Shown: piece by piece, positions 6,028 through 47,218 of the stretch
Layout of the letters: the number at the start of each line of letters is the position of its first letter
Position numbering within the stretch: position 1 is the first letter of the stretch
From: Aureimonas pseudogalii
Lineage (GTDB): Bacteria; Pseudomonadota; Alphaproteobacteria; Rhizobiales; Rhizobiaceae
Reading direction: 5' to 3'
DNA: 64,000 nt
NCBI RefSeq assembly: GCF_014196835.1
Contig: NZ_JACIEK010000010.1
Span: 62,001-126,000, forward strand
Notes under the pieces: generated by a model
Seen by the model: only the letters and a program-made list of their open reading frames with translations
The model's database searches: none
What the model was told of the DNA's origin: nothing
Translations under genes and position numbers: made by a program

Positions 6028-6038
6028 CGGGCCGCCGG

Positions 6039-6967: not shown

Positions 6968-7066
6968 GAGATCATCTCCCTTTCCTGATGACGATCCTTC
7001 TGCACCTCCAAACTATCGTGTTAAAGTCGGGATCTTATCCTAGTATGGTGACCAACAGGATCTCCC

Positions 7067-7912: not shown

Positions 7913-7954
7913 GGCCGCCGGCTCGCCGGGTGGACGGAACGCGAAAGCGACGCC

Positions 7955-8749: not shown

Positions 8750-8795
8750 GGGGTCGAGGTTCCTCCCGGAGGGTCGTCGGTTCTCGGTCGCTCGT

Positions 8796-10367: not shown

Positions 10368-10530
10368 GGGTTCCTCCCTCCCACGGACCCCGGGGCCGAT
10401 GGCCCGCCGCGTCCGCTTGTCCTCACATCACCCGCGCCGGGCCGCCGGGTGTACGGTCGTCGTCGTTCTCGGTGCCGACCGCGAAGCGCTCTCCGAGGCG
10501 CGCTCGCGGCCGGATGGCGTCAGTGCTTCG

Positions 10531-11295: not shown

Positions 11296-11428
11296 TCCCC
11301 TTCTAACTCATATATCGGTTGACGGTGCAAGGCGCAATTCGATACGACGGATCGAACCACGAACTCGCCGGCCGGGCGGGCTCGGCCTGCGCCTTCGGGT
11401 GCCGCATTCCCTCGAAAGCACGGCAGCC

Positions 11429-12541: not shown

Positions 12542-12608
12542 GCCTTGGTGCACCGTCGCGCCGGCCGGTGCGATTCTCTTCCTCCTGCGCGAAGGCCGTG
12601 ATCCCGCC

Positions 12609-13463
12609 ATGACGAGAGCCCCGAGCCTCACGATCGACAGCCATCAGCATTTCTGGAAGGTGTCGCGCGGCGATTATGGCTGGCTCGACGAGAGCGTCGC
12701 GCCGATCCTGCGCGACTTCCTGCCCGAAGACCTGCGACCGCTGCTGGCGCGCGCCGGCATCGACCGCACCATTCTGGTGCAGGCGGCGGAGACGCAGGCC
12801 GAGACCGACTTCCTGCTGGAGATCGCCGCGCAGACCGACTTCGTCGCCGGGGTCGTCGGCTGGCTCGACATGGACGATGCCGGCTTTCCCGAGCGCCTCG
12901 CGCACTACCGCCGCAATCCGCATTTCGTCGGGCTCCGCCCGATGCTGCAGGGCCTGCCCGACGACGCGTTCATCCTGCGACCGCGTGTTCTCGACCATCT
13001 GAAGCTGGTGGCGGAAGCCGATCTCGCCTTCGACATCCTCACCTTCCCCCGGCACCTGCCGCATGTGGCGAAGGCGCTGGAGGCGGTGCCCGGCCTTCGC
13101 GCCGTGATCGACCACATTTCCAAGCCGGCCATCGCGGCGGGCACGCTCGACCCCTGGCGGAGGGATCTCGCCGCGATCGCCGACTTTCCGAACGTCGCCT
13201 GCAAGGTGTCGGGAATGGTGACGGAGGCCGGCGCCGACTGGCGGCTCGCGGATTTGCGCCCCTTCGTCGATCATGTCGCCGCCGTTTTCGGCGAGGACCG
13301 GCTGATGTTCGGATCGGACTGGCCGGTGGCGCTTCTCGCCGCGCCCTATGGCGAGGTGGCGCATGCCGCGCGGGCGCTTCTCGGCGCGCATTTCGGCCCG
13401 GCGGGCATGACGAAGATCTTCGGCGCCAACGCCGCACGCTTCTACAAAGTCGAGGTGGCGTAG
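12609..13463 (+). CDS. amidohydrolase 2 family, sugar-lactonase-like (COG3618)
   Basis: 284 residues. The N-terminal DSHQHFWKVSRGDYGWLDE motif with HxH metal ligands, the central VIDHISKPAI and the C-terminal FGSDWPVALL (metal-binding Asp) are typical of the L-fuconolactonase/L-rhamnonolactonase group. Members open sugar lactones or hydrolyse related dicarboxylate lactones in the cytoplasm. It lies just after the iron alcohol dehydrogenase. A lactonase is the expected partner of an oxidase that makes a lactone, such as the nearby GMC enzyme, though this link is inference. A paralogue occurs at 18057-19022. Confidence 0.9.
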   Translation: MTRAPSLTIDSHQHFWKVSRGDYGWLDESVAPILRDFLPEDLRPLLARAGIDRTILVQAAETQAETDFLLEIAAQTDFVAGVVGWLDMDDAGFPERLAHYRRNPHFVGLRPMLQGLPDDAFILRPRVLDHLKLVAEADLAFDILTFPRHLPHVAKALEAVPGLRAVIDHISKPAIAAGTLDPWRRDLAAIADFPNVACKVSGMVTEAGADWRLADLRPFVDHVAAVFGEDRLMFGSDWPVALLAAPYGEVAHAARALLGAHFGPAGMTKIFGANAARFYKVEVA

Positions 13464-13485
13464 CGCCGGCTCGGGGCACCGAGGT

Positions 13486-32938: not shown

Positions 32939-34636
32939 TTGAAGAAGCTGATCAACGATCCGCTGGCCGTCGTCGACGAGATGCTGGCGGGATTGACATA
33001 CGCCCATCCGGAACTCGCACGACTCGAAGGCGAGCGCGTGGTCGTGCGCGCCGACATCGACGCGTTTCGCATGAGCGGGCGCGTCGCGCTGGTCTCGGGC
33101 GGCGGCTCGGGGCACGAGCCCGCCCATGCCGGCTATGTCGGCGAGGGCCTGCTGACGGCCGCGGTCTGCGGCGACGTGTTCACCTCGCCCTCCACCGATG
33201 CCGTGCTCGCCGCGATCCGCGCCGTGACGGGGGAGGCGGGCACGCTGCTGATCGTCAAGAACTACACCGGCGACCGGCTGAACTTCGGTCTGGCGGCCGA
33301 GATCGCCCGCTCCGAGGGCCTCGCGGTCGAGATGGTGGTCGTGGCCGACGACGTGGCGCTCGAAGCCGGCCCCGAAACCGCCGGGCGCCGCGGCATCGCG
33401 GGCACCGTTCTCGTGCACAAGGTGGCCGGCGCGGCGGCGGCCGGCGGCGCCTCGCTCGAAGAGGTCAAGGCCATGGCCACCCAGGCGATCGCCGCCGTCG
33501 CCAGCATGGGCGTGGCGCTCTCGGCCTGCACGGTGCCGGCCGCGGGCAAGCCGGGCTTCACGCTCGGTGACGACGAGATCGAGCTCGGCCTCGGCATCCA
33601 CGGCGAGCCCGGCGTGCGCCGCATGCCGATGCGGCCGGTGCGCGAACTCGTCGAGACCATCCTCCAGCGCATCGCCGGGGAACTGCCGCTGGCGCGCGGC
33701 GATCGGATCGCGGTGCTCGTCAACAATCTCGGCGCGACGCCCGCCATGGAAATCTCGATCGCCGCGGCCGGCGTGGTCGAAGCCGCGCGGGCGCGGGGCT
33801 TCGCGGTGGAGCGGGTCTGGGCGGGCACGTTCCTCACCGCGCTCGACATGGCCGGCTGCTCGGTCTCGGTGATGCGGCTCGGCGACGCGCTTCTGGCGCA
33901 TCTCGATGCGCCAGCCTCCGCGCCCGCCTGGCCGGGACGCGGCGCCGGGCCGCTCGGTGGCGCACCCGCGATGATCGCGCAGGCGCAACAACCCGCCGCG
34001 GTGCCGGTGCCTGGCGACGGCGCGGCGATCGTCGCCGCCGTGCGGGCGGCGGCGCAGGCCCTCGTCGCCGAGGAAGCGCGGCTGACCGATCTCGACGGGC
34101 GGGTCGGCGACGGCGATCTCGGGCTCAATCTCGCGCGCGGCGCCTGCGACGTGCTCGCCGGCATCGACGCCTACGGTAGCGCAAATGCCGCCTCGATCCT
34201 GCGGTTCCTCTCGGCGACGCTGCGCAAGAGCGTCGGCGGCACGTCCGGCGCGCTCTATGCGGCGGGCCTCCTGCGCGCCGCACGCGAGCTCGACGGGATC
34301 GAAACGCCAGCGGCGCGGGACTGGTCCGCCGCCCTCGCGAGCGGCACGAAGGCGATCGCCACGCTCGGCGATGCCCGGCTCGGCGACCGCACGATGCTGG
34401 ATGCGCTGCTGCCGGCCGCCGAGACCCTCGCGGCGCATGTCGGCGAATCGGGAGCGCTCGACGCCGCGCTGGAGGCCGCACGCCGCGGCACTGCGGCGAC
34501 CGCCGCGATCGCCTCGCGGCGCGGACGCTCGAGCTATCTCGGCGAGCGCGCGATCGGCACGCCCGATCCCGGCGCCGAGGCGGTTCTCGTCTGGCTCGGC
34601 GCCCTTCGCGACGCGCTCGCCGGGGCGGATCGGTAG
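32939..34636 (+). CDS. dhaKL: dihydroxyacetone kinase, fused DhaK-DhaL (ATP-dependent)
   Basis: 565 residues from a TTG start chosen because the product then begins with the usual KKLINDPLAVVDEMLAG and GGGGAG stands 7 nt upstream; the longer frame has no family match. The DhaK half has SGGGSGHEPAHAGYVGEG and the substrate-binding His at about residue 221 in GIHGEPG. A Pro/Ala linker (residues about 330-360) leads to the DhaL half with the ATP/metal motif LDGRVGDGDLGLNLARG and GGTSGALYAAGLL. Fused ATP-using enzymes of this size make DHAP from dihydroxyacetone; some act on other trioses or ketoses. Convergent with the ribitol-dehydrogenase-like gene of the adjacent polyol cluster. Confidence 0.93.
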   Translation: MKKLINDPLAVVDEMLAGLTYAHPELARLEGERVVVRADIDAFRMSGRVALVSGGGSGHEPAHAGYVGEGLLTAAVCGDVFTSPSTDAVLAAIRAVTGEAGTLLIVKNYTGDRLNFGLAAEIARSEGLAVEMVVVADDVALEAGPETAGRRGIAGTVLVHKVAGAAAAGGASLEEVKAMATQAIAAVASMGVALSACTVPAAGKPGFTLGDDEIELGLGIHGEPGVRRMPMRPVRELVETILQRIAGELPLARGDRIAVLVNNLGATPAMEISIAAAGVVEAARARGFAVERVWAGTFLTALDMAGCSVSVMRLGDALLAHLDAPASAPAWPGRGAGPLGGAPAMIAQAQQPAAVPVPGDGAAIVAAVRAAAQALVAEEARLTDLDGRVGDGDLGLNLARGACDVLAGIDAYGSANAASILRFLSATLRKSVGGTSGALYAAGLLRAARELDGIETPAARDWSAALASGTKAIATLGDARLGDRTMLDALLPAAETLAAHVGESGALDAALEAARRGTAATAAIASRRGRSSYLGERAIGTPDPGAEAVLVWLGALRDALAGADR

Positions 34637-34663: not shown

Positions 34664-35392
34664 TCAGATGTCGAAGTTGCGCGGCAGGATCACGAGGTCG
34701 CGGATCGCCACGTTGCGCGGCCGTGTCAGCATGAAGAGTACGGCCTCGGCCACCTCCACCGGCTCGATCAGGGCGCCGTTGGCGATGGCGCGCTTCAGGT
34801 TCTCGGGCGGCCAGTCCTTGACCAGCGGCGTCACCACCGGGCCCGGCGCGACCGCGCCGACGCGCACGTCGTGCTTGGCCACCTGCCGGCGCGTGGCATG
34901 GACGAAGGCCTGCACCGCGTGCTTGGAGGCCGAGTAGATCGGCTCCCACGGAATGGCCTGATGGCCGGCCACCGAACTCGTGACGATCACGTCGCCGGTG
35001 CCGCGGGAGATCATGTGCGGCAGCACCGCATGGACACCCCGAAACACGGCGTTGACGTTGAGGTTCAGCATCCGGTCGAAGGCGGCGGGATCGCCGTCCA
35101 CGAGGTCGCCGCCGACATAGGAGCCGGCATTGGCGTGGAAGATGTCGAGCTGGCCGGCCTCCTTGAGGATTTGCGGCAGCATGCCGGCGACTTCGGTCGG
35201 ATCGGTGATGTCGATCCGCAGCGCCCGCGCGCCGGTGCCGAGATCGGCCACCGCCTTGGCGAGTCCGTCTTCGTCCCTGTCGACGACGAAGACCGTCGCG
35301 CCGGCCCCCAGCATCGTCCGCGCGCATTCGAGCCCGATGCCCGATGCGCCCCCTGTGATCGCCGCGACCTTGCCGGTCAGTTCGTTGGCCAT
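34664..35392 (-). CDS. rbtD: ribitol 2-dehydrogenase-like SDR
   Basis: 242 residues, GGGAGGA 7 nt before the ATG. SDR core: ITGGASGIGLECARTML, the variant HANAGSYVGGD in place of NNAG, catalytic Ser in VTSSVAG and YSASKHAV, ending RNVAIRDLVILPRNFDI. The variant HANAG motif and the terminal VRDLVILP-type tail match rhizobial ribitol 2-dehydrogenases, which oxidise ribitol to D-ribulose with NAD+. Last gene of the leftward set epimerase-ROK-SDR-SDR. The exact polyol may differ from ribitol. Confidence 0.9.
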   Translation of the reverse strand: MANELTGKVAAITGGASGIGLECARTMLGAGATVFVVDRDEDGLAKAVADLGTGARALRIDITDPTEVAGMLPQILKEAGQLDIFHANAGSYVGGDLVDGDPAAFDRMLNLNVNAVFRGVHAVLPHMISRGTGDVIVTSSVAGHQAIPWEPIYSASKHAVQAFVHATRRQVAKHDVRVGAVAPGPVVTPLVKDWPPENLKRAIANGALIEPVEVAEAVLFMLTRPRNVAIRDLVILPRNFDI

Positions 35393-35423
35393 GGTTGGTC
35401 CTCCCTCGTTGCTTCCTGGATGC

Positions 35424-36188
35424 TCAGCGCGTGAGATAGCCGCCGTCGATCGCCAGCACCGCGCCGGTGACGTAGCTCGCGGCCGGCGAGCATAGGAAGA
35501 GCGCGGCGTTCGCCACCTCCTCCACCGTGCCGTAGCGGCCCATCGGCGTCATCTGCCGCCAGATCGGATCCCAGTCGGGATTGGCGAAACCGCCGCGCGA
35601 CATGTCGGTGTCGATATAGCCGGGCGCCACCGCGTTGACGCGCACGCCCCGCGCCGCGAACTCGCTGGCAAGGCTCTTCGTCATCATGTGCACCGCCGCC
35701 TTCGAGGCGTTGTAGGCGGCCTGGTTCTGCGGAACGTTGGAGGCGAGCCCGGAGATCGAGCCGACGTTGAGGATCACGCCCGATCCTTGCGCCGTGAACG
35801 CCGGCAAGGCGGCGCGCGAGAAGCGGAAGACCTGCGCGACGTTGGTGGCGAGGATCGCCTCCAGCCGCTCGTCGTCGAAATCCTCGGTGTCGCCGTGCCG
35901 GGCGATGCCGGCATTGTTGACGAGGATGTCGATCCGTCCGTAGCGCTCGATCGTGTGGCGCACCAGTCGCTCGGGGGTGGCCGGGTCGGTGGCGTCGGCC
36001 GAGACGAAATCGAACTCGGCCCCGGCGGCGCGCAGCTGCGCCTCGCCCTCGGGATGATCGCGGCGCGCGGTGATCACGCATTTCGCGCCCGCTTCGCCGA
36101 AGATCTCCGCGATGCCGAGGCCGATGCCCCGGTTGCCGCCGGTGATCAGCGCCACCTGTCCGTCCAGTCTGAATTGGCCGAGCGTCAT
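35424..36188 (-). CDS. short-chain dehydrogenase/reductase, polyol/sugar type
   Basis: 254 residues, AAGGAG 6 nt before the ATG. Classical motifs: ITGGNRGIGLGIAEIF, NNAGIARHGD, GSISGLAS, YNASKAAVH, and the closing IDGGYLTR. It resembles the gluconate 5-dehydrogenase/galactitol dehydrogenase group that acts on open-chain sugars and polyols. The 31-nt gap to the ribitol-dehydrogenase-like gene suggests one transcript. With two SDRs here and two in the rightward operon, several polyol or ketose redox steps are encoded at this locus. Confidence 0.92.
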   Translation of the reverse strand: MTLGQFRLDGQVALITGGNRGIGLGIAEIFGEAGAKCVITARRDHPEGEAQLRAAGAEFDFVSADATDPATPERLVRHTIERYGRIDILVNNAGIARHGDTEDFDDERLEAILATNVAQVFRFSRAALPAFTAQGSGVILNVGSISGLASNVPQNQAAYNASKAAVHMMTKSLASEFAARGVRVNAVAPGYIDTDMSRGGFANPDWDPIWRQMTPMGRYGTVEEVANAALFLCSPAASYVTGAVLAIDGGYLTR

Positions 36189-36250
36189 GGTTTCTCCTTC
36201 CGCCGGGCCCCGATCGGGCCGGCTTGCCTGTCTCGAACACCGCCGTGCCG

Positions 36251-37501
36251 TCAGGGCATGGCCGGATCATCCCCTGCCGCCGGCAGATCGGCCGGCACGA
36301 CATCCTCGTTGAAGCGCTGGCTCTCCAGCGAGAGATAGCGCTGGTGCATCATGCAGGCCGCGCCGAAGGCCGAGCCGAAGGCGGCGTTCTCGTTCACCAC
36401 GATCAAGGGCAGCGGGAAGCTCGGCTCCTGAATCTCGGCGAGATGAAGGGCCACGCGCGCCGCCACCAGCGGATAGAGCAGCGCGACGGAGCCGCCGAGC
36501 ACGATGCGGTCGGGATCGACGATGCGGCAGGCCTGCACGAGGCCGAAGGCCAACGCCTTCGCCCAGGTCTCGCCGATCGCGACGGCGGCCGGGGCGCGGT
36601 GCTCGACGTCGGCGAGAAACTGCTCGAAGCTCGGATCGGAGCGCGGCGAGAGGGCACGGTAGGCCGAGAGGATCGCCTCCCGCCCGATCACCTGCTCCAG
36701 GCTGCGCTCGCCGCCCGCCTCATAGGGAATGCGCAGGTGGCCGATCTCGCCCGCCAGCCCGTTGCCGCCGCGAAACAGCGTGCCGTCGACGACGATGCCG
36801 CCGCCGATGCCGCTCTCCATCACCAGAAACAGCGTCACGCCCCCCCGCGGCGCGCCGCGCATGTAGGTGTCGCCGATCGCGAAGGCGTTGGCGTCGTTCT
36901 GCGCCAGCACGGGAACGCCGGACGGGAGGGCGCCGCGCAGACGCTCGGCGGGATGCACGTCCCGCCAGCCGAGCAGCGGGGCGATGCGGATGAAGCCGGT
37001 CTTGTCCATCTGCGCGGGAACCGACACGCCCACCCCCTCGCAGCGCGCCCAGCGCTCCGGTGCGAGGCGCCCGGTGGCCCAACGGCCGGCCAGCGCGAAG
37101 GCCTCGTCGAGCGGGATCGAGGGCCCGTCATAGGGCTCGATGCCCCGGTCGACGACGTTGCCGGCCAAATCCAGCTCGACGAAGCCGAGATGCTCGACGC
37201 CGATCTCAATGCCCACAAAAACCGCGGCGTCGGGCACGAGTTCGAGGAGGATGCCGGGTCGGCCCGCGCGCTGGGCCGCGCCGCCGGCCCGCGCCACCGC
37301 CACCTCGCGCACGAGGCCGCCGGCGGTGAGGCCGGCGACGATGTGGCCGGAGGAGGACCGGTTGAGGCGAAGCTCGCGCGCCAGATCGGCGCGGCTGAGG
37401 CGGCCGGACCGGTAGAGCGCACTGAGCGCGGCCACCTCGTTGCCGAGGCGGATGCGGCGCGGCGTGCTGGCGATGGAGCCCGGATCGAGCAAGAGGGACA
37501 C
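36251..37501 (-). CDS. ROK-family transcriptional regulator
   Basis: 416 residues from a GTG at 37501; a TTG at 37492, better spaced behind CCGGAG, is a good alternative. A winged helix (NEVAALSALYRSGRLSRADL, ARELRLNRSSSGHIVAGLTA) precedes the ROK domain with VFVGIEIGVEHLGFVELDLA, QNDANAFAIGD, ESGIGGGIVVDGTLFRGGNG and GEIGHLRIPY. The usual ROK zinc site CxCGxxGCxE is missing; the segment after GEIGHLRI reads PYEAGGERSLEQVIG, with no Cys. NagC/XylR-like members bind sugars and repress catabolic operons. It lies between the epimerase and the SDR genes and probably also controls the divergent transporter operon. Confidence 0.9.
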   Translation of the reverse strand: MSLLLDPGSIASTPRRIRLGNEVAALSALYRSGRLSRADLARELRLNRSSSGHIVAGLTAGGLVREVAVARAGGAAQRAGRPGILLELVPDAAVFVGIEIGVEHLGFVELDLAGNVVDRGIEPYDGPSIPLDEAFALAGRWATGRLAPERWARCEGVGVSVPAQMDKTGFIRIAPLLGWRDVHPAERLRGALPSGVPVLAQNDANAFAIGDTYMRGAPRGGVTLFLVMESGIGGGIVVDGTLFRGGNGLAGEIGHLRIPYEAGGERSLEQVIGREAILSAYRALSPRSDPSFEQFLADVEHRAPAAVAIGETWAKALAFGLVQACRIVDPDRIVLGGSVALLYPLVAARVALHLAEIQEPSFPLPLIVVNENAAFGSAFGAACMMHQRYLSLESQRFNEDVVPADLPAAGDDPAMP

Positions 37502-37617
37502 TCCGGAACGGATGGCAGGGCGAGGCGTCCCCCGCCGCTTCGGCAGCCGGGGGCACGGCAGGCGTACCGCGCGGCTCGCAGCATTGGGCCGTACCCTGGA
37601 CGGCAGAGCGTCCGCCT

Positions 37618-38502
37618 TCAAGGCCGGGCGTTGGTCTCGCGCCGGCGCGCCGCCTCCTCGCGCTTCAGATCGATGAAGGCCTTGGCATGCCGGGCGAGCG
37701 GCACGTTGTCGGTCCAGGTGTCGCGCCAGATCGCGCAGGCGAGCGACAGCGCCTCGTCCACCACCGCGCTGGAGAAGGATTCGAACGTGATGTTGCGGGC
37801 ATAGTCGATGTCGAGCAGGGCGTCGAAGATGCGGTCGAAGTCGATCACGCCGTCGCCGAGATATCCCCGGTTGCTCTCGCCGATGTGGAAATAGCCGATC
37901 CTGTCGCCGGCGAGGCGGATGGCGGCGGCGGGATTGGCCTCCTCGATGTTCATGTGGAACGTGTCGAGATGGAGCGTCACGGCGGCCGAGCCGGTCGCCT
38001 CGATGAAGGCGAGCCCCTGCGCGGCCGTGTTGAGGAGGTTGGTCTCGAAGCGGTTGACCACCTCCAGCACGAGGTCCACCCCGGCGGCCTCGGCGATCTC
38101 GGCGGTGCGCGCGATGGCGGCGACCGAGTTCTGCCGGCCGCGCTCTGTCGGCATCGTCGAATATTTGGTGTGGGCGGAATAGAGGATGCCGCCGAGCGTC
38201 TTGCCGCCGACGTCGCGCACCGCCTTCACGGCGTCGGCGAGCAGCGCCTCGCCGGCCCGCACCGTTGCCGCGTCCTCGCTCGACACATCGGCCGAGACCG
38301 GCAGGCCCATCGTCACGGCGATCTCGACGTCGAGCGACTGCGCCTTGCGGGCGAGACGATCGAGATCGAAGCGCTCGGGGCGCAGATAGGCGAACTCGAT
38401 CAGCCGGTAGCCGCAGTCGGCCGACTGTTCGAGCGCCGTCTCCAGCGCGTCCTGCGTTCCGCCGCCGGTCCAGACGAACGAATGAATGCCCAAGCGCCTC
38501 AT
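37618..38502 (-). CDS. ketose 3-epimerase (D-psicose/D-tagatose 3-epimerase family)
   Basis: 294 residues from the ATG at 38502, GGGAGAG 9 nt upstream. TIM-barrel sugar epimerase of the xylose-isomerase-like group. The metal and catalytic set is visible: Glu in DLVLEVVNRFETNLLNT, Asp/His in VTLHLDTFHMNIEEANPA, His in IGYFHIGESNRGYLGDG and Glu in ITFESFSS. The LEVVNRFE and LDTFHMNIEE strings are hallmarks of psicose/tagatose 3-epimerases. It inverts C3 of a ketose, shifting one ketose into the form accepted by downstream enzymes. First gene of the leftward set, divergent from the ABC operon. Confidence 0.92.
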   Translation of the reverse strand: MRRLGIHSFVWTGGGTQDALETALEQSADCGYRLIEFAYLRPERFDLDRLARKAQSLDVEIAVTMGLPVSADVSSEDAATVRAGEALLADAVKAVRDVGGKTLGGILYSAHTKYSTMPTERGRQNSVAAIARTAEIAEAAGVDLVLEVVNRFETNLLNTAAQGLAFIEATGSAAVTLHLDTFHMNIEEANPAAAIRLAGDRIGYFHIGESNRGYLGDGVIDFDRIFDALLDIDYARNITFESFSSAVVDEALSLACAIWRDTWTDNVPLARHAKAFIDLKREEAARRRETNARP

Positions 38503-38528
38503 GACCGAATCTCTCCCGCAGTCCCATA

Positions 38529-38547
38529 TTGTTGTTATGGGCAACAA
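38529..38547. promoter_or_regulatory. candidate ROK operator 1
   Basis: TTGTTG-N7-CAACAA in an AT-rich patch 27 bp before the epimerase ATG. Its right half shares GCAACAAA with the second site at 38731, 190 bp away. Part of the 385-bp divergent region 38503-38887, which holds no gene and must carry both promoters. Confidence 0.5.
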
Positions 38548-38729
38548 AATAGTGAGCGTGATCTTCTGTCAAGTCGTCGTAGATCATCGGACGATGCGAT
38601 GCAGCAAACCCTCGGACTGCACCGCAATAGAAACGGGCGATTTCGCCCTGCCGTCACGTTGATGCCAAGCGCGACGGACCCTCCGATCCCGCAAGTCTGC
38701 GGCTGACGCGAGATAATTTGAAGCTCGTC

Positions 38730-38745
38730 GCAACAAATGTTGTGC
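38730..38745. promoter_or_regulatory. candidate ROK operator 2
   Basis: GCAACAAATGTTGTGC holds CAACA-N2-TGTTG and repeats the GCAACAAA half-site of the first candidate. It lies 143 bp upstream of the binding-protein ATG. Two spaced sites would suit looping or joint repression of both divergent operons by the ROK regulator. Confidence 0.5.
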
Positions 38746-38887
38746 AGGTCTTGAAACTGCGTTAGCGTTCGGTCGGAGCAGGGTTCGGCGGAGACGAAGC
38801 GGGTCCGCTCCCAAGAAGACCGCGTGCCGTTGCTGCAGAGCGGAAGACATCGCCGGCCTGACATCATTCATTCTGGGAGGACTGAAC

Positions 38888-40321
38888 ATGAAGCATGGAT
38901 TGGGAACGGGTCTGCTCGCGCTGACGATCGCGCTGATGGGCGGCGTCGGGTCGGCGAGGGCCGACTTCTGGTCGGAGGCCGGCGCCAAGTTCAAGGGCGT
39001 TACCCTGCATGGCGTCACCGAGAGCACGCCCCCCTCGAACTACGTCAAGGACGTGCTGGCCAAGCAGTTCGAGGAGAAAACCGGCATCAAGGTCGAGCTG
39101 GAGACCACCTCCTGGGACCAGATGTACGACAAGGCGATCAAGGACATGGAGGCCAAGACCGGCATCTATGACATGGTCTATATCGAGCAGGACATCGTCT
39201 ACGCCTATCTGCAGCGCAACTTCCTCACCGACATCACCAAGACGCTGGCGGACGACCCTTCGCTGAAGGCGCCGACCTTCGACGAGAAGAACTTCACGAC
39301 CTTCGCCAACGACTTCCGCGGCACCGGCGATCACTTGTTCGGCGTGCCGATGGAAGCCTTCATCAAGATCTACCTCTACCGAACCGACCTCTTCAACGAT
39401 CCCGCGATCAAGGAGGCCTTCAAGAAGGAGACCGGCAAGGATCTGGCGCCGGCCAAGACCCACGAGGACTACACTGAGATCGCGGAGTTCTTCACCAAGT
39501 ACGGCAAGGACAAGGGCCAGGAGCTCTGGGGCACGACCTCGCAGGCCCATACCGGCCATCCCGCCTCTTGGTACGAATATGTCGAGTCGGTGGCGCCGAC
39601 CTTCGGCGTCTACAATTGGGGCATCGACGCCGACAAGAACTACGCCGCCAGCGTCGCCAACGGCGGCACGATGAACAGCGACAAGGCCAAGGCGGCGCTG
39701 AAGTACTTCCTGCATCTGCGCGACATCGCGCCGCCGGAATCGGCCTCCAGCACCTGGTCGGAGGTGGCGACGACGTTCGCCGCCGGCCGCGCCGCGCAGG
39801 GCCTCGTCTACGGCGAGAACGCCGCCTGGATCGCCTCCGACGCCTCGAAGTCGAAGGTCGTCGGGAATGTCGGCGTCGCGCTGCCGCCGCTCTCGGACGG
39901 CGTCATGGCGGATGCGGAATCGGGCAAGGGCTATATCGGCTACTACGACGGCGGCGCCTTCGGCGTGCCCGTCTCCGCCAAGAACCAGGAGGCCGCGCTC
40001 CTGTTCCTCCAGTATATCGGGCAGGACTCGGTGCAGTCCGACTGGGCCGTCGCCGCGCCGCGCATCACCAACACCGCCACCTACGACGACCCGAAGGTGA
40101 CGGAGATGGATGCCAAGCTCGGCGGCTACTACACGATGCTGAAGAACGACGGCAAGCTCTTCGCCGGCGCACCGAAATATCCGTTCCATGCGCAGGTCCG
40201 CGAGACCGTGGCGCCGATCTTCTACCGGATCCTCACCGGCGAGGTCGACCCGGACGAGGGGCTGGACGAGATGGCGACGGCCGCCGAGGGCGAGCTGACC
40301 AACCTCGGCTACCGCAAGTAG
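38888..40321 (+). CDS. CUT1 ABC importer, polyol/sugar-binding protein
   Basis: 477 residues, GGGAGGA 7 nt before the ATG. A signal peptide ([20 protein letters not shown], cut after ARA) leads to a large family 1 binding protein with many aromatic residues likely to stack on sugar ([32 protein letters not shown]). It resembles polyol-type CUT1 binding proteins more than maltodextrin ones, but this is a weak judgement. First gene of the rightward operon; a strong stem-loop follows it. Confidence 0.93.
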
Positions 40322-40327
40322 GAGCCG

Positions 40328-40363
40328 GCGCGGGCCGCCGCCTTCGCGCCCAGCGGCCCGCGC
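40328..40363 (+). other. stem-loop between binding protein and permease genes
   Basis: GCGCGGGCCGC (40328-40338) pairs perfectly with GCGGCCCGCGC (40353-40363) over a 14-nt loop, just after the binding-protein stop and with no T-run. Such structures often stabilise the upstream mRNA or partly end transcription so that binding protein is made in excess over the membrane parts. Confidence 0.65.
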
Positions 40364-40429
40364 GCTTCCACCCCCGAGCCGGGCATCACGCCCATCCGTG
40401 TACCGTAGCCTTCTGGGAGGGTGGCTTCC

Positions 40430-41311
40430 ATGCGCTCGAACAAGGTCGGCTGGCTGTTGCTGGCGCCGACGCTCGTCATTCTCGCGACCTTCGGCATCGT
40501 GCCCTTCTTCTACGTGCTCTACGTCGCGTTCCACCAATGGAACCCGTTCGGCGCCAGCCCCTTCATGGCGTTCAACGGCGCCAGCAACTTCCGGCGCCTC
40601 GTCTTCGACGCCGAGTTCCTGCGCTCCATCTGGTACACGCTGAAATTCGCCTTCTTCGCCGTCTTCAGCGAGATCGTGATCGGCTACCTGCTGGCGCAGC
40701 TCTTCATGCGCGAGTTTCCCGGCCGCGGCTTCTTCCGGACCATCCACACGCTGCCGCTCATCGTGGCGCCGATCGTGGTGGGCTCGGTCTGGCGGCTGAT
40801 GACGACGCCCTCGATCGGCATCATCCCGTATTATCTCAACGCCTGGTTCGGCTACGAGATGAACATCGGGCGCGACGCCAACGCCGCCTTCATCCTCACC
40901 GTCATCATGGACATCTGGCACTGGACGCCGCTGGTGACGCTGACGCTGCTCGCCGCGCTCGCCTCGCTGCCCAAGGAGCCCTTCGAGCAGGCGCAGATCG
41001 ACGGCGCCAGCCGCCTGCAGATCTTCTGGCACATCACGCTGCCGATGATCCGGCCGGCGATCCTCGCCACCGTCTTCATCCGCCTGATGGACGCGCTGCG
41101 CACCGTCGACGAGGTGTGGATGCTGACCGGCGGCGGCCCGGGCGCGGCCACCCGCTACATCGGCCTGCACATCTGGAAGGTCGTCTTCCCGAAGACCGAC
41201 TACGGCTACGGCTCGGCCATCTCGGTGGTCGTCCTCTACCTCACGCTGGTCATGTGCTGGCTGCTCTACGTCGCGCTCGTCGCGCCCCGCGCCCGCAAGA
41301 GGAGCCTGTGA
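40430..41311 (+). CDS. CUT1 ABC importer, MalF-type permease
   Basis: 293 residues from the ATG at 40430, chosen over the in-frame GTG at 40421 because GGGAGG is 9 nt upstream. Six helices beginning [20 protein letters not shown]; the EAA loop reads [20 protein letters not shown] and is followed by [20 protein letters not shown], as in MalF relatives. Its stop overlaps the next start (TGATG). Confidence 0.95.
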
Positions 41312-42147
41312 TGCAAAAGGAACGCCCGCTCTTCAACGTCGTGCTCTGGGTGCTGCTCAGCGTGCTCACGCTGTTCCCGATCTACTGGCTCTTCGTGATC
41401 TCGGTGAAGCCGGCGGTGGATCTCTTCACCACGCCCAGCCTCTTCCTCGATACCGCCTACTGGACCAACTATTCCAACGTTCTCGGCAACGAGACGCTAC
41501 GCCGCTACATGCTGAACTCGGTGATCATCTCCAGCGGCAACGCGCTGCTCTGCACGACGCTCGCCTTCATGGCCTGCTACGCGCTGTCGCGCTACGATCT
41601 CGGCGGCAAGGAGAACATCTTCTTCTGGACCATCACCAACCGCATGGCGCCGGCCGCGGTGTTCCTGCTGCCGTTCTTCCTCCTGTTCACGCAGGTCTTC
41701 GCGATCGGCGACTTCAAGCTCTACGACACGCGTATCGGGATGATCCTTCTCTACTGCACGTTCAACCTGCCCTTCGCGATCTGGACGCTGCGCCCGACCA
41801 TCGACGGCATTCCCAAGGAGCTCGACGAGGCCGCGACGGTGGACGGCGCCTCGACCTGGACGCTGATCCGCGAGGTGGTGTTCCCGCTCGCCCGGCCGGG
41901 CCTCGCGGTGACGCTGATCCTCACCTGGGTCTTCGCCTGGAACGAGTTCCTGCTCGCGGCGACGCTGACCAGCTTCAACGCGCGCACCATCACCACCGGC
42001 CTTTCGGAATACGTCACCACCACCGGCACCGAATGGGGCACGATGGCCTCGATCGCCATCATCACGCTGATCCCCGCGCTCGTCGTCTTCGCGGTGGTGC
42101 AGCGCCATATCGTGGCCGGCCTGACCTTCGGCGCGGTGAAGGAGTAG
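41311..42147 (+). CDS. CUT1 ABC importer, MalG-type permease
   Basis: 278 residues, AGAGGAG upstream. Six helices; EAA motif [20 protein letters not shown]; the conserved [12 protein letters not shown] segment and the end [15 protein letters not shown] are typical of MalG permeases. It forms the channel with the MalF-type partner. The ribosome-binding site for the following small gene lies inside its last codons (AAGGAG). Confidence 0.95.
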
Positions 42148-42151
42148 AGCG

Positions 42152-42391
42152 ATGGATCATCCCGTGGATCTCGACGCCGCCGACGAGGAACTCGCCCTCG
42201 CGGCCCGCCGCCCGGCCCCCGAGGGCTTCCTGCCGATCGTCACCAACTGGTTCGACCGGCTGTTCATGGGCATCTACCTCTTCGTGGCGCTGGAGCTTCT
42301 CTGGATGCGCTTCCTCGAAGCCACGATCCCGCTCACCGTCTGCCACGTCCTGGCGCTGGCGCTCGGCGTCCTCATCGTCTGGAAGGGCTGA
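42152..42391 (+). CDS. small two-helix membrane protein of the ABC operon
   Basis: 79 residues, AAGGAG 8 nt before the ATG, 4 nt after the permease stop. An acidic N-terminus (DHPVDLDAADEELALAARR) leads to two membrane helices, FDRLFMGIYLFVALELLWMR and ATIPLTVCHVLALALGVLIV, ending WKG. No family was recognised. Position between permease and ATPase genes, good ribosome-binding site and conserved-looking hydrophobic pattern argue that it is real, probably an accessory subunit of the importer. Small membrane proteins are found in some glycerol- and polyol-type ABC operons. Confidence 0.8.
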   Translation: MDHPVDLDAADEELALAARRPAPEGFLPIVTNWFDRLFMGIYLFVALELLWMRFLEATIPLTVCHVLALALGVLIVWKG

Positions 42392-42515
42392 TCGCCCCCG
42401 CCGCCTTCCCCGCCATCGGGAAGCGACGCCGCCGCCACGCCAGAATCCCCCGCATCCGGGCGCCTCTCCGCGCGAGCGCCCGGTCTCTCCAAGCCGCATC
42501 GGAAGAGTTCCCCTC

Positions 42516-43577
42516 ATGGCACAGGTCATCGTCAAGGGCATCGTCAAGCGCTACGGCAGCGCGCAGGTCATCCACGGCGTCGACGTCGACATCGCCGACG
42601 GCGAGTTCGTGGTGCTCGTCGGCCCGTCCGGCTGCGGCAAGTCCACGCTTCTGCGGATGATCGCCGGGCTGGAGGCGATCTCGGCCGGCACGATCTCGAT
42701 CGGCGGGCGGGTGGTCAACGACGTCCTGCCCAAGGACCGCGACATCGCCATGGTGTTCCAGTCCTACGCGCTCTATCCGCACAAGACGGTCGCCGAGAAC
42801 ATGGGCTTCTCGCTGAAGATCAAGGGCGCGCCGAAATCCGAGATCGCCGCCAAGGTGAACAAGGCCGCCGGGATCCTCGATCTCGGCAAGCTCCTCGACC
42901 GCTACCCGAAGCAACTCTCCGGCGGCCAGCGCCAGCGCGTCGCCATGGGCCGCGCCATCGTGCGCGACCCCGCCGTGTTCCTCTTCGACGAGCCGCTGTC
43001 CAATCTCGACGCCAAGCTGCGCGTCGCCATGCGGGTGGAGATCAAGGAACTGCACCAGCGCCTTCGCACCACCATCGTCTACGTCACGCACGACCAGATC
43101 GAGGCGATGACCATGGCCGACAAGATCGTGGTGATGCGCGACGGGCGCGTCGAGCAGATCGGCCCTCCGCTGGAGCTCTACGACCGGCCCAACACGGTCT
43201 TCGTCGCCGGCTTCATCGGTTCGCCCGCGATGAACTTCGTCAAGGGCCGCATCGAGGCGCGCGACGGGCGGAGCGTCTTCGTCTCCGACGGCGGCGCCGT
43301 GCTGCCGGTGGACGAGGTGCGCGCCGAGCCGGGTCGCCCGGTGATCTACGGCATCCGGCCCGAGCATATCGACATCGGCCCCGGCGGCGTGCCGGCGCGC
43401 GTCTCGGTGCTGGAGCCGACGGGCTCTGAGACGCAGGTCTTCGCCCGCATCGGCGACGATTCGATCGACGCCGTGGTGAAGGATCGCATCTCGGTGCGCC
43501 CGGGCGAGGAGGTGTCGTTCCGCATCGACCCGCGCCGCGCCCATCTCTTCGACCGCGAGACCACGAAGCGGCTCTGA
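42516..43577 (+). CDS. CUT1 ABC importer ATPase (UgpC/MalK/SmoK type)
   Basis: 353 residues from the ATG at 42516, GGAAGAG 9 nt upstream. Walker A GPSGCGKST at 36-44, Q-loop in MVFQSYALYPHKTV, signature LSGGQRQRVAMGRAI, Walker B VFLFDEPLSNLDA, switch His in VTHDQ, and a C-terminal OB/TOBE domain (YGIRPEHIDIG). It powers the importer of this operon and, as such ATPases are often shared, might also serve the ATPase-less importer at 22.9-26.1 kb. The 124 nt before it are empty. Confidence 0.96.
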   Translation: MAQVIVKGIVKRYGSAQVIHGVDVDIADGEFVVLVGPSGCGKSTLLRMIAGLEAISAGTISIGGRVVNDVLPKDRDIAMVFQSYALYPHKTVAENMGFSLKIKGAPKSEIAAKVNKAAGILDLGKLLDRYPKQLSGGQRQRVAMGRAIVRDPAVFLFDEPLSNLDAKLRVAMRVEIKELHQRLRTTIVYVTHDQIEAMTMADKIVVMRDGRVEQIGPPLELYDRPNTVFVAGFIGSPAMNFVKGRIEARDGRSVFVSDGGAVLPVDEVRAEPGRPVIYGIRPEHIDIGPGGVPARVSVLEPTGSETQVFARIGDDSIDAVVKDRISVRPGEEVSFRIDPRRAHLFDRETTKRL

Positions 43578-43591
43578 AGGAGGGCGGTGCG

Positions 43592-44317
43592 ATGGACTTC
43601 CAGGGACAGCGCGTCGTCGTCACCGGCGCGGGCAAGGGCATAGGCCGCGCCACGGCGATCATGCTGGCGCGCCGCGGCGCGAGCGTCGTCGCGCTCACCC
43701 GCTCCGCAAGCGATCTCGCGACGCTGGAGGCCGAGACCGGCTGCCGGGGCATCGCCGTGGATCTCGCCGACGCCGAGGCGACGCGCGCGGCGGCTCTCGA
43801 AGCCCTGCCGGCCGACCTCCTCGTCAACTGCGCCGGCACCACGGAGCTGGAATCCTTCCTCGACGTGACCGTCGAGAATTTCGATCTCCTCCATGCCGTC
43901 AACACGCGCGCGCCGATGATCGTGGCGCAGGAATTTTCTCGCGAACTCGTGGCGTCGGGCCGAAAGGGCGCGATCGTCAACGTGTCGAGCTGCGCCGCCT
44001 TCGTCGGCATTCCCGACCATGCCGCCTATTGCGCCTCGAAGGCCGGGCTCGACGGGCTGACGCGCGTCATGGCGAAAGAACTCGGCCCCAAAGGCATCCG
44101 CGTCAACGGCGTGCACCCGACGGTGACGCTGACGCCGATGGCGTTGAAGGCGTGGAGCGACCCGGCCAAGGCTGCCGGCATGATGGCGCGCATTCCGCTC
44201 GGGCGCTTCGCCGAGCCCGACGACATCGCCGAGGTCATCCTCTTCCTCCTTTCGGACGCCGCCCGCATGGTGCATGGCCTGTCGATGCCCGTCGACGGCG
44301 GCTACATGATCGCCTGA
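43592..44317 (+). CDS. L-xylulose reductase (DCXR)-like SDR
   Basis: 241 residues, GGAGGG upstream. It follows the carbonyl/L-xylulose reductase pattern closely: GQRVVVTGAGKGIGRATAIM, DLLVNCAGTTELESFLDVT, catalytic NVSSCAA and YCASKAGLD, NGVHPTVTLTPM, then AWSDPAKAAGMMARIPLGRF. The SDR NNAG motif is NCAG here. Such enzymes interconvert a ketose and a polyol with NADP(H) or NAD(H). In this operon it probably oxidises the imported polyol or reduces a ketose, feeding the kinase whose start overlaps its stop (TGATG). Confidence 0.92.
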   Translation: MDFQGQRVVVTGAGKGIGRATAIMLARRGASVVALTRSASDLATLEAETGCRGIAVDLADAEATRAAALEALPADLLVNCAGTTELESFLDVTVENFDLLHAVNTRAPMIVAQEFSRELVASGRKGAIVNVSSCAAFVGIPDHAAYCASKAGLDGLTRVMAKELGPKGIRVNGVHPTVTLTPMALKAWSDPAKAAGMMARIPLGRFAEPDDIAEVILFLLSDAARMVHGLSMPVDGGYMIA

Positions 44318-45753
44318 TGCGCGGCGCCGGAGGGGCCAATCGGGCGCTCGTCCTCGATCTCGGCGGCGGGTCGGCGCGGGCCATGCTGGCCGAGTGCGGC
44401 GAGGGCGGGGCGATCGCGCTCACCGAACTCCACCGCTTCTCGGGCTACGAGACGCGCGTGGTGGACGGCCCGGCCTGGGATCTCGATGCGCTCTTTGGGG
44501 GCGTCGAGGCGGGGCTCGCGGCCGCGGCCGCGGCCGGCAGAATCGGCTCGATCGGCGTCGACGGCTGGGGCGTCGACTTCGCGCTGCTGGGGGCGGACGG
44601 GCGTCCGCTCGAAACCCCGCGCACCCATCGCCATCCGCGCGGCCTCGACGGCTTCGAGGCGCTGCGGGCCCATCACGAATTGATCGCCGCGCGCACCGGC
44701 GCGCAGCCGCTGCCGATCGTCAGCGTCTTTCACCTCGTGGACTGGGCCCGTTGCAACCGCGACGCAGCGGCGGGCGTGCGCCAGTTCCTGATGATCGCCG
44801 ATCTGGTCGCCCACCATCTCACCGGGGTCGCCGCCTGCGAGCGCACGCTGGCGCGCACCGCCGGGCTCGTCGATCTCGCGACCGGCGATTGGGATCGCGA
44901 GATCCTGGCGCTCACGGGCCTGCCCGCTGCAGCCTTCGGCCGTCTCGTGCCGGCCGGGACCATACTCGGACCCCTCGCACCGGAGCTCGCCGCGCGCACC
45001 GGTCTCGGCCCCGTGCCGGTGATCGCGGTCGCGGCGCACGACACGGCGAGCGCGGCCTTGGCGCTGGCTCCCGGCGATGACGAGGCCTTCCTCGTCGCGG
45101 GCTCGTGGAACCTCGTCGGTGCCGAGGTGCCGGACGGGGCGATTTCGACGCAAGCGCGCGCGGCCGGCTTCGGGCTGGAGGGCGGCGTCGAGGGGCGGGG
45201 GCTTCTCCTGCGCTCGCTGCCCGGCATGCATCTCCTGCGCCGGCTGCGCGCGGCATGGGCGCGGCGCCACGGCGCCGACATCGACTTCCCGCGCTGGTCC
45301 GCGCTGGCGCTCGCCGCGCCCCCGGCCGCCCTCGTGCCCGACCTTTCGCGCACCGCCTTTCTCGATCCGCCCGACCTTCTCGCCGCGCTACACGCCGAAT
45401 GCCCCGGCCTGTCGCAGGATGAGCCCGGCCCCCTGGCGCGCGCGCTCTACGAGGGGCTCGGCCGCGAGGTCGCCGGCGCTCTCGATACGCTGGAAACCTG
45501 TCTCGGCCGACGGTTTTGCGCCGTCCGGCTCGGCGGCGGCGGCGCGCAGGATGCCGCCTTCTGCACGCTGGTCGCGAGCGCCGCGCGGCGCCCCGTGCTC
45601 GCCGGCCCGGTGGAGGCGAGCGCGCTCGGCAACGCGCTCGTGCAGTTCGCCGCGCTCGGCCGCTTTCCCTCGATCGAGGCCGGCCGCCGCGCGCTCGCCG
45701 CACGCCTTCCCATTCGCCGCTTCGAGCCGGCCCCCGAGGAGCATCTGGCATGA
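44317..45753 (+). CDS. FGGY sugar kinase, rhamnulokinase-like
   Basis: 478 residues, ATG overlapping the SDR stop (TGATG). FGGY fold: phosphate loop region [37 protein letters not shown] (the string typical of L-rhamnulokinases and related ketose 1-kinases), RTAGLVDLATGDWD, AAHDTASAALAL, and the C-terminal RLGGGGAQDAAF-C ATP site with GPVEASALGNALVQ. It should phosphorylate a ketose at C1, since a class II aldolase gene follows with ATGA coupling. It is not a pure match to any one characterised kinase by eye. Confidence 0.92.
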   Translation: MRGAGGANRALVLDLGGGSARAMLAECGEGGAIALTELHRFSGYETRVVDGPAWDLDALFGGVEAGLAAAAAAGRIGSIGVDGWGVDFALLGADGRPLETPRTHRHPRGLDGFEALRAHHELIAARTGAQPLPIVSVFHLVDWARCNRDAAAGVRQFLMIADLVAHHLTGVAACERTLARTAGLVDLATGDWDREILALTGLPAAAFGRLVPAGTILGPLAPELAARTGLGPVPVIAVAAHDTASAALALAPGDDEAFLVAGSWNLVGAEVPDGAISTQARAAGFGLEGGVEGRGLLLRSLPGMHLLRRLRAAWARRHGADIDFPRWSALALAAPPAALVPDLSRTAFLDPPDLLAALHAECPGLSQDEPGPLARALYEGLGREVAGALDTLETCLGRRFCAVRLGGGGAQDAAFCTLVASAARRPVLAGPVEASALGNALVQFAALGRFPSIEAGRRALAARLPIRRFEPAPEEHLA

Positions 45754-46427
45754 CCGACGACATTCCCGCGCTGAAACAGGCGATCTGCGACATCGGCCGC
45801 CGCGCCTGGGACAAGGGCATGGGCGCGGCCAACGACGGCAACGTCACGGTGCTGCTCGGCGACGGCACGCTGCTCTGCACGCCCACGAACACCTCCAAGG
45901 GCTTCATGACGCCCGACATGATCTGCCGCATCGACCGCACGGGCGCGCCGGTGGAGGAGAGCCGCTGGAAGCCCTCGTCGGAAACGCGCATGCATCTCTG
46001 CGTCTACGAGGCGCGCGACGACGTGCGCGCCGTCGTGCATGCCCATCCCGTCTACGCCACGGTGCACGCGATCTGCGGCAAGCCGCTGACCCAGCAGATC
46101 ATGCCGGAATCCACGATGTTTCTCGGCGAGGTGCCGCTGACGCCCTACGGCCTGCCCTCGACGGACGAACTCTCGGACGCGATCCGCCCCTATCTCGCGC
46201 GCCACGACGCGCTGCTTCTCCAGAACCACGGCGCGCTCACCTGCGGCCACGACCTGCAGTCGGCCTGGTTCAAGATGGAGGCGCTCGACTACTACGCCAA
46301 GGTCGTCTTCCTCGCCTCGCAATATGGCGGCGCGCACGAGTTCGACCCGTACGAGGTCGACCGCCTCGTCGCCCTCAAGAACCAGCGGTTCCCCGCGCCG
46401 GGCCGCCATCCCTTCATCGACCGCTGA
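45750..46427 (+). CDS. class II aldolase/epimerase (FucA/AraD family)
   Basis: 225 residues, ATG inside the kinase stop (ATGA). Zinc ligands are seen in VVHAHPVYATVHA (HxH) and LLLQNHGALTCG, with the catalytic acid expected in KPSSETRMHL. Family members such as fuculose-1-phosphate aldolase cleave a ketose 1-phosphate to DHAP and an aldehyde. The upstream C1 ketose kinase strongly supports an aldolase rather than an AraD epimerase role. Longer in-frame text upstream is the kinase gene region and is not used. Confidence 0.92.
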   Translation: MTDDIPALKQAICDIGRRAWDKGMGAANDGNVTVLLGDGTLLCTPTNTSKGFMTPDMICRIDRTGAPVEESRWKPSSETRMHLCVYEARDDVRAVVHAHPVYATVHAICGKPLTQQIMPESTMFLGEVPLTPYGLPSTDELSDAIRPYLARHDALLLQNHGALTCGHDLQSAWFKMEALDYYAKVVFLASQYGGAHEFDPYEVDRLVALKNQRFPAPGRHPFIDR

Positions 46428-46444
46428 CAGATCAGGAGTTCGCC

Positions 46445-47218
46445 ATGTTTTCCCAGAAGCTCAGATTGGACGGACGCGTCGCCGTGGTCACCGGCGGCGG
46501 GCGCGGCATCGGCCTCGCCATCGGCGAGGCGCTGGCCGAGTTCGGCGCCCGCATCGTCATCGCCGACATCGACGCCGAGATCGCCGAGGCCGGCCGCGAG
46601 GCGCTGCGCGCCAAGGGCTTTGAAGCCAGCGCGCACGTCCTCGACGTGACGAAGCCGCAGGAGGTGGAGGCCTTCGCGCGGCGCGTGGTGGAGGCGGAGG
46701 GCCGCGTCCACATCCTCGTCGCCAATGCCGGCATCGCCCTCTCGGGCGTCGCCGCCGAGGACACCGAGGACGAGCGCTGGCTGCAGGTCAACGACGTCAA
46801 CTACAACGGCGTCTTCTGGTGCAACCGCGCCTTCGGCCGCCACATGCTGGGGGCCGGCGGCGGAGCCATCGTCAACATCGGCTCGATGTCGGGCTACATC
46901 TCCAACCGGCCGCAGAAGCAGACCTACTACAACGCCTCGAAGGCCGCCGTGCACCAGATGACCTCCTCGCTCGCCGCCGAATGGGCCGACCGGGGCGTGC
47001 GGGTCAACGCCGTCGCGCCAACCTACATCGAGACCGAGATGACGCGCTACCGCGACGGCAACGACGGCATGCTCGACGTCTGGCTGCGCGACACGCCGAT
47101 GCATCGCATGGGCCAGCCCCACGAGATCGCCTCGGTGGTGCACTTCCTCGCCTCCGACGCCTCCAGCCTGATGACCGGCACCACCGTCCTCGCCGACGCC
47201 GGCTTCACCTGCTGGTAG
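46445..47218 (+). CDS. galactitol/D-arabinitol dehydrogenase-like SDR
   Basis: 257 residues, AGGAG 6 nt before the ATG. It starts FSQKLRLDGRVAVVTGGGRG and continues NAGIALSGVAAEDTEDERW, FWCNRAFGRHMLGAGGGAIV, GSMSGYISNRPQKQTYYNAS, AEWADRGVRVNAVAPTYIET and ends GFTCW. The FWxxRAFGRxM and MSGxIxNRPQ strings and C-terminal aromatic Trp match galactitol 2-dehydrogenase-type enzymes. It would oxidise a polyol to a ketose. Last gene of the rightward operon, 17 nt after the aldolase. Confidence 0.92.
   Translation: MFSQKLRLDGRVAVVTGGGRGIGLAIGEALAEFGARIVIADIDAEIAEAGREALRAKGFEASAHVLDVTKPQEVEAFARRVVEAEGRVHILVANAGIALSGVAAEDTEDERWLQVNDVNYNGVFWCNRAFGRHMLGAGGGAIVNIGSMSGYISNRPQKQTYYNASKAAVHQMTSSLAAEWADRGVRVNAVAPTYIETEMTRYRDGNDGMLDVWLRDTPMHRMGQPHEIASVVHFLASDASSLMTGTTVLADAGFTCW

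Follow-up and report, generated by a model that had tools for sequence, protein, structure and literature searches.

A putative polyol and rare-ketose island of Aureimonas pseudogalii with a predicted kinase-aldolase ending on a shared framework

An island of 13 genes in Aureimonas pseudogalii, at positions 34664-47218 of the 64,000-nt stretch of DNA analysed here (the window; G+C 70%, host genome 5.0 Mb), places a sugar kinase and an aldolase beside a transporter and several dehydrogenases, and so raises the question of which ketose is formed there and how it is broken down. We propose a polyol pathway controlled by a ROK-family repressor, in which oxidation and 3-epimerisation would be followed by phosphorylation at C1 and an aldol split, the last two steps replacing the tagatose kinase and GatZ-like protein of orthologous islands; we give this proposal just short of an even chance of being correct. 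It draws on gene content, orthology, alternative endings, co-occurrence of the epimerase with an ending and conserved operator-like sites, all of which are read from the sequence. Gene prediction and Pfam scans gave the following genes, in which SDR denotes a short-chain dehydrogenase/reductase.

34664-35392, minus strand: SDR1, ribitol-2-dehydrogenase type (phmmer, 9x6o 312 bits, 5jo9 307 bits)
35424-36188, minus strand: SDR2, galactitol-dehydrogenase-like polyol dehydrogenase (phmmer best 2wdz, 195 bits)
36251-37501 (start uncertain), minus strand: ROK-family repressor (PF00480, 96.5 bits)
37618-38502, minus strand: ketose 3-epimerase, Mesorhizobium loti L-ribulose 3-epimerase type (phmmer, 3vyl 312 bits)
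38888-40321, plus strand: CUT1 solute-binding protein, SBP (PF01547)
40421-41311 (start could be 40430), plus strand: permease 1 (PF00528)
41311-42147, plus strand: permease 2 (PF00528)
42152-42391, plus strand: DUF2160 small membrane protein of the transporter (PF09928, 28.9 bits, cut-off 28)
42516-43577, plus strand: MalK-type ATPase (PF00005, PF17912)
43592-44317, plus strand: SDR3, L-xylulose-reductase-like (phmmer, 1pr9 218 bits)
44317-45753, plus strand: FGGY kinase of the RhaB/FucK branch, predicted ketose 1-kinase (TIGR02627, 239 bits; tree)
45750-46427, plus strand: class II (zinc) aldolase, predicted ketose-1-phosphate aldolase (PF00596, 158 bits; Glu and three His conserved)
46445-47218, plus strand: SDR4, polyol dehydrogenase (phmmer, 3awd 288 bits, 2wdz 217 bits)

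The genes lie in two divergent operons, the left one running epimerase, ROK, SDR2, SDR1 and the right one SBP, the two permeases, DUF2160, ATPase, SDR3, kinase, aldolase, SDR4. An earlier note on this DNA had described the same 13 genes and two operons, with which gene prediction and Pfam agree; the gene couplings that it pointed out are present by coordinates, a TGATG being common to the end of SDR3 and the start of the kinase and an ATGA to the kinase and aldolase, and homology backs its list of a polyol importer, several SDRs, a ketose 3-epimerase, a rhamnulokinase-like C1-type kinase and an aldolase, here of the zinc type. As that note also had it, none of the 13 genes encodes an aldehyde dehydrogenase by Pfam; an aldose isomerase, a tagatose kinase and a GatZ-like protein are likewise absent from the 13, and no microcompartment shell gene was matched among the 19 window proteins scanned. 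Its label of an undescribed island was too strong, because most of the island belongs to a widespread framework that can end instead in a tagatose kinase with a GatZ-like protein; the accessible text of the open-licence PubMed Central (PMC) literature yielded no description of this gene combination. Other Aureimonas and Mesorhizobium liriopis show the same gene order, with identities of 59-95% depending on the gene (lowest for ROK and kinase), and the arrangement is therefore more than chance. A scan for sigma-70 promoters gave 0 sites, and terminator-like sites numbered 7 against 4.1 expected, neither result being informative.

A shared framework with alternative endings

The importer, several SDRs, the ROK protein and the ketose 3-epimerase form an orthologous framework in Rhizobiales and Rhodobacterales, and with the SBP as query the importer turned up in 35 plasmid records and, among 397 genomes of the order, in 28; the DUF2160 gene is in place across most framework loci. 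Sinorhizobium sp. B11 and Rhodobacter sp. CZR27 have a like importer, epimerase and SDRs, but in them a PfkB-family kinase and a GatZ-like protein replace the FGGY kinase and aldolase. The PfkB of B11 (L101) clears the NCBIfam model for tagatose kinase (553.8 bits, cut-off 420). When 48 framework loci were sorted by ending, 10 carried the aldolase, 14 the tagatose kinase-like PfkB with the GatZ-like protein (13 of these PfkB proteins being assigned only through a tblastn match to that of B11), one carried both and 23 neither; SDR4 is present in all 10 of the aldolase loci and the rhamnulokinase-like kinase in eight. The 14 GatZ loci remain close to the window, at 69-80% identity for the SBP and 71-79% for the epimerase.

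The epimerase follows the endings, being present in all 25 loci that have one and in none of the 23 that do not. Loci L036-L052 and L100 entered this table through their aldolase, and L101-L105 with L133-L137 are 10 of the 35 SBP-matching plasmid records, so that only the 28 loci from the 397 genomes are free of selection by ending; in that subset the epimerase is found in 8/8 loci with an ending and 0/20 without. (L098 and L052 were counted as a single locus, and L041, which lacks the framework, stands outside the 48.) In a midpoint-rooted SBP tree, the 25 ending-bearing loci and three without an ending fall on one side of a branch supported at 100/100; these three belong to two lineages (L102; L115 with L117) and show neither ending nor epimerase in the stretch covered. 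The ending label needs six changes on this tree and more than six in every one of 200 shuffles, a clustering that carries no probability because near-copies alone would produce it. On the sequence evidence, a single pathway with a shared upstream part appears to take either of two interchangeable endings. M. liriopis has a kinase-aldolase-SDR4 run that is immediately followed by a tagatose kinase (441.6 bits, cut-off 420).

Eight loci (L113, L114, L116, L122, L123 and L125-L127) have the framework importer with no dehydrogenase of the recognised set, epimerase or ending nearby, and the framework SBP may thus serve other pathways too.

Two putative operators lie between the divergent operons.

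38529-38547, plus strand: putative ROK operator TTGTTG-N7-CAACAA, before the epimerase (exact match)
38718-38742, plus strand: second putative ROK operator TTGAAG-N7-CAACAAATGTTG, before the SBP

With up to two mismatches allowed, the pattern TTGTTG-N7-CAACAA has two matches in the window, compared with 0.23 expected. CAACAA sites are present in all 23 framework loci bearing ROK: the 18 with a short epimerase-SBP interval all have TTTGTTG/CAACAAA in common, and the five others, with an interval of about 1.6 kb, carry CAACAAATA near the epimerase start. The corresponding interval of the two loci without a ROK gene (L103, L112) has no CAACAA. This conservation supports control of both operons by the ROK protein through TTGTTG/CAACAA putative operators, whichever ending is present. 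The N-terminus of the ROK protein matches MarR_2 at 26.7 bits, just under the cut-off.

The kinase and aldolase and their probable origin

The kinase carries FGGY_N and FGGY_C domains and is nearer to RhaB/FucK than to XylB/AraB, its top NCBIfam model being rhamnulokinase at 239 bits and its xylulokinase score only 52; it fails the curated cut-offs for both rhamnulokinase (528 bits) and fuculokinase (105 bits against 471). In the kinase tree, the 13 Pseudomonadota kinases form one group (100/100), nested with Firmicutes kinases in a group of 19 rows (99/99) that includes two neighbours of FucI, but the reference branches are long enough to warn of long-branch attraction and the deep order is unsure. 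The E. coli RhaB also accepts L-fuculose and L-xylulose, according to the available part of PMC3245297. Phosphorylation of a ketose at C1 is predicted.

For the aldolase, alignment with FucA, RhaD, AraD, SgbE and YgbL showed that it keeps the FucA-type Glu (SSE), at a position where AraD and SgbE have Asp (SSD), together with the His-x-His and His zinc ligands, which with the Glu make up the zinc aldolase motif. The Glu led us to reject an AraD-type epimerase; it is also found in YgbL and is by itself compatible with a decarboxylase. FucA- and RhaD-type aldolases cleave 3R ketose 1-phosphates, and the predicted reaction here is the split of a ketose 1-phosphate to dihydroxyacetone phosphate (DHAP) and an aldehyde. 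The closest named relatives of the enzyme are in six Aureimonas (82-95% identity), and it is present in six of the 21 genomes of the genus, host included. The host has another FucA-like aldolase, 50% identical to E. coli FucA, at 8998-14807 of C3:140000-159900 (L035). Going by how the neighbouring proteins begin, it seems to be accompanied by a DeoR regulator, a zinc alcohol dehydrogenase and a tripartite ATP-independent periplasmic importer; this locus is possibly a second ketose 1-phosphate route.

A scan of named genomes for the aldolase gave 53 loci, 16 of them from Pseudomonadota (L036-L049, L052, L086) and 37 from Firmicutes or unplaced bins. SDR4 adjoins the aldolase in 16/16 Pseudomonadota loci and the kinase is found in 13, the exceptions being L037, L040 and L041; RhaA, FucI, XylA and AraA had no match at E<=1e-8 in any of the 16. 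In at least seven loci (L042-L047, L086) the kinase and the aldolase are separated by a DeoR regulator, so that the unit is often kinase-DeoR-aldolase-SDR4, as in Rhodobacter sp. CZR27, where no importer is annotated directly beside it. Among the 37 Firmicutes or unplaced loci, RhaA lies nearby in two (L054, L080), FucI in two (L059, L083), a diol dehydratase large-subunit cluster in 11 and a microcompartment shell-protein cluster in 11, one member of each cluster having been verified by Pfam. Because its Firmicutes relatives stand beside FucI, RhaA and microcompartment genes, and from the kinase tree, the kinase-aldolase pair seems to have its roots in deoxysugar catabolism and to have acquired polyol dehydrogenases as partners in place of an isomerase.

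In L078 (approximately 9980-14500) and similar microcompartment loci of Clostridia, the aldolase C-terminus is about 65 residues longer, and the L078 gene is followed by those for an HbpS-like protein (PF03928), an aldehyde dehydrogenase, a zinc alcohol dehydrogenase and a shell protein.

The proposed pathway and its rivals

The importer, of the ATP-binding cassette (ABC) type, would take up one or more hexitols, and perhaps pentitols too. Its SBP has 5iai as closest solved relative (51 bits) and, in a profile search, a weak match to 4rya, annotated '(Sorbitol)' (E 4e-4); an AlphaFold model built with nine close homologues had a mean predicted local distance difference test score of 38 and was not used. 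SDR1-SDR4 would then oxidise the polyols to ketoses. The best matches of SDR1, 9x6o and 5jo9, are both entries named ribitol 2-dehydrogenase, and the second is presumably the Bradyrhizobium enzyme of PMC12193009, which would make that enzyme a relative of SDR1. Among the relatives of SDR2 and SDR4, 2wdz is galactitol dehydrogenase and 3awd is an entry named putative polyol dehydrogenase. In the part of PMC12193009 that is accessible, the products of galactitol dehydrogenase are mainly 3R ketoses (L-tagatose, L-fructose, D-sorbose and D-psicose, with L-xylulose from xylitol), 3S products making up only 1.6-3.2%, and the Bradyrhizobium dehydrogenase yields two 3R ketoses, D-sorbose and L-tagatose, at no more than about 1%.

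Residues 1-289 of the 294 of the epimerase match 3vyl, a characterised member of the L-ribulose 3-epimerase subgroup, so that the match is a full-length one; the epimerase tree has little resolution (six of 23 inner branches starred). It would interconvert 3S and 3R ketoses, most likely D-tagatose and D-sorbose: tagatose kinase being the alternative ending, and also lying downstream of SDR4 in M. liriopis, D-tagatose is likely to belong to the ketose pair, and its 3-epimer is D-sorbose. The direction would be from 3S to 3R here, supplying the kinase and aldolase, and towards D-tagatose in GatZ islands. The RhaB/FucK-type kinase would place a phosphate on C1 of the 3R ketose, and the aldolase would split the product between C3 and C4 to DHAP and an aldehyde, which would be D-glyceraldehyde if the ketose is D-sorbose; a triokinase of the dihydroxyacetone (DHA) kinase type (DAK), encoded next to the island, may convert this into glyceraldehyde 3-phosphate. 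The kinase and aldolase would thus replace the tagatose kinase and GatZ-like protein of the orthologous islands. More tentatively still, and with rather more doubt than confidence, the framework of Rhizobiales and their kin can be seen as a modular rare-ketose hub, mostly under one ROK operator, with either a tagatose 6-phosphate ending or a ketose 1-phosphate ending taken over from deoxysugar catabolism; the latter would use an aldolase for D-sorbose 1-phosphate (or a similar 3R-hexulose 1-phosphate) together with a triokinase.

Several observations weigh against this proposal. The substrates are all drawn from relatives, and the M. loti epimerase prefers pentuloses, with relative activities of 100% for L-ribulose, 42% for L-xylulose, 24% for D-tagatose, 20% for D-ribulose and 6% for D-sorbose in the accessible text of PMC8167858. 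D-Tagatose already has an outlet in the host, because a locus elsewhere in the genome (L138, C1:531000-550900, 5847-13950) encodes a separate CUT1-like importer, a GatZ-like protein, a tagatose kinase (427.6 bits, cut-off 420) and an SDR; the sole PF08013 match of the genome is on this contig, C1, with a PfkB adjoining, and not on the island contig, C10. One plasmid of Rhizobium sp. RCAM05350 (L100) has both endings together, with fragmented matches for kinase, aldolase, epimerase, alcohol dehydrogenase and ATPase that reflect decay or sequence error. Two Aureimonas (L037, L040) keep the aldolase and SDR4 and have no kinase match genome-wide at E<=1e-8, and a third Aureimonas locus with aldolase and SDR4 (L041) has no kinase within its 20 kb. 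Homologues of SDR4 (at least 55% identity) occur in five of the 14 GatZ loci and nine of the 23 loci without an ending, so that SDR4 is no less a part of the general framework than of the cassette; as it is not special to the aldolase ending, we lowered slightly the odds of both the proposed pathway and the modular hub. Lastly, no operator-like TTGTTG/CAACAA site precedes the DHA kinase in the window, and in four Aureimonas relatives its best homologue (67-72% identity) lies away from the island, which makes its membership uncertain and weakens it as a candidate core gene.

The main rival is a pentitol version, since the epimerase preference and SDR3 fit it equally well. Xylitol, L-arabitol or ribitol would be oxidised to L-xylulose/L-ribulose or D-ribulose, the epimerase would form the 3R pentulose, and the kinase and aldolase would convert this to DHAP and glycolaldehyde. 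The preference of the M. loti enzyme for L-ribulose and L-xylulose, the nearness of SDR3 to L-xylulose reductase and of SDR1 to ribitol dehydrogenase entries, and a XylB homologue (46-47%) near the framework in L112 and L132 all suit this version, but the other ending involves a tagatose kinase, and a triose kinase, superfluous for glycolaldehyde, lies in or beside the module in four of 17 loci (the window, L045, L046 and L052, among the window and the 16 Pseudomonadota aldolase loci); we consider it rather unlikely. We regard as distinctly less probable an independent kinase-aldolase-SDR4 pathway that merely lies beside the framework and serves its own polyol, for example galactitol by way of L-tagatose to L-glyceraldehyde. 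The cassette does stand apart from this importer in Labrys, L045, Salipiger, Salinisphaera and Rhodobacter sp. CZR27, and L-tagatose, the hydroxy analogue of L-fuculose, is among the reported products of galactitol dehydrogenase given above; yet the window kinase overlaps the framework gene SDR3, the M. liriopis kinase stands in line after SDR3 and DAK, and the epimerase tracks the endings and occurs (46%) even with the Labrys cassettes, which have another importer.

Catabolism of a 6-deoxyhexitol (L-fucitol or L-rhamnitol) to lactaldehyde is probably the ancestral chemistry of this aldolase branch, as the Firmicutes relatives adjoining FucI, RhaA, diol dehydratase or microcompartment genes would suggest, but the island has no lactaldehyde-handling gene, the Pseudomonadota loci gave no isomerase match and the alternative ending is of tagatose type, so that we think it very improbable as the present function. 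Hardly to be credited is an OtnC-type decarboxylase acting on an acid sugar phosphate: the best NCBIfam match of the aldolase is OxoTetrPhDc (134 bits, under the cut-off of 250) and its Glu is that of YgbL, but the partner kinase is of the FGGY family, the dehydrogenases are polyol-type SDRs and several Firmicutes relatives neighbour fucose or rhamnose genes.

Related systems and the neighbouring dihydroxyacetone kinase

The proposed pathway adds a variant to known polyol and deoxysugar catabolism, and its interchangeable ending is its most interesting feature. The Agrobacterium D-altritol and galactitol pathway, which Wichelecki 2015 is said to have described as running via D-tagatose 6-phosphate, reportedly resembles the island in ABC import, polyol oxidation and a ketose intermediate, and shares a tagatose kinase and GatZ-like protein with the orthologous framework islands; the island differs in its predicted C1 kinase and aldolase, and in having a 3-epimerase. 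The kinase and aldolase families are those of L-fucose and L-rhamnose catabolism (FucK/RhaB with FucA/RhaD), where DHAP and an aldehyde are likewise expected, and of the Clostridium phytofermentans microcompartment route, as given in the accessible part of PMC3557285, but unlike both the island has no aldose isomerase or microcompartment and would obtain its ketose from polyol dehydrogenases. An aldolase also opens a D-tagatose route in evolved E. coli, which uses the sugar after expression of a class II aldolase, the intermediate being, on our own reading, D-tagatose 1-phosphate; that route, in the available text of PMC10101011, depends on the phosphotransferase system, whereas the island has ABC import, an ATP-type kinase and a fucose-type aldolase. 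The smo and mpt loci of S. meliloti, also from Rhizobiales, similarly combine ABC polyol import with polyol dehydrogenases, and the portion of PMC10433430 at hand names no kinase-aldolase ending for them, the likeness being one of described functions.

If the proposal is correct, it would show how the final steps of a catabolic pathway can be exchanged when transport, regulation and entry enzymes stay in place, and the kinase, the aldolase and several SDRs, labelled in databases just by superfamily, would gain functions. A D-sorbose 1-phosphate (or similar) aldolase pathway with a triokinase would then be a bacterial counterpart of the fructose 1-phosphate route of liver. A rare-ketose kinase and aldolase could be useful in rare-sugar synthesis, and, thanks to the alternative endings, comparing two orthologous islands offers a direct test of the substrate.

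The possible triokinase is the neighbour of SDR1.

32939-34636 (start could be 32807), plus strand: fused DhaK-DhaL (Dak1-Dak2) DHA kinase, possible triokinase (NF011049, 628 bits, cut-off 492)

The earlier note had this gene abutting the island, which holds for the window, where its end is 27 bp from that of SDR1; it is, however, convergent to SDR1, and so in neither operon, and does not adjoin the island in four other Aureimonas. In the Aureimonas relative L095 the best homologue lies about 2.6 kb from a GatZ/PfkB locus, and L042 has a further homologue (38%) 5.8 kb from the module. In M. liriopis the DHA kinase (57%) is within the operon, between SDR3 and the kinase, a position that, like those beside the L045 and L046 cassettes, is as expected of a triokinase removing glyceraldehyde, uncertain though its membership is.

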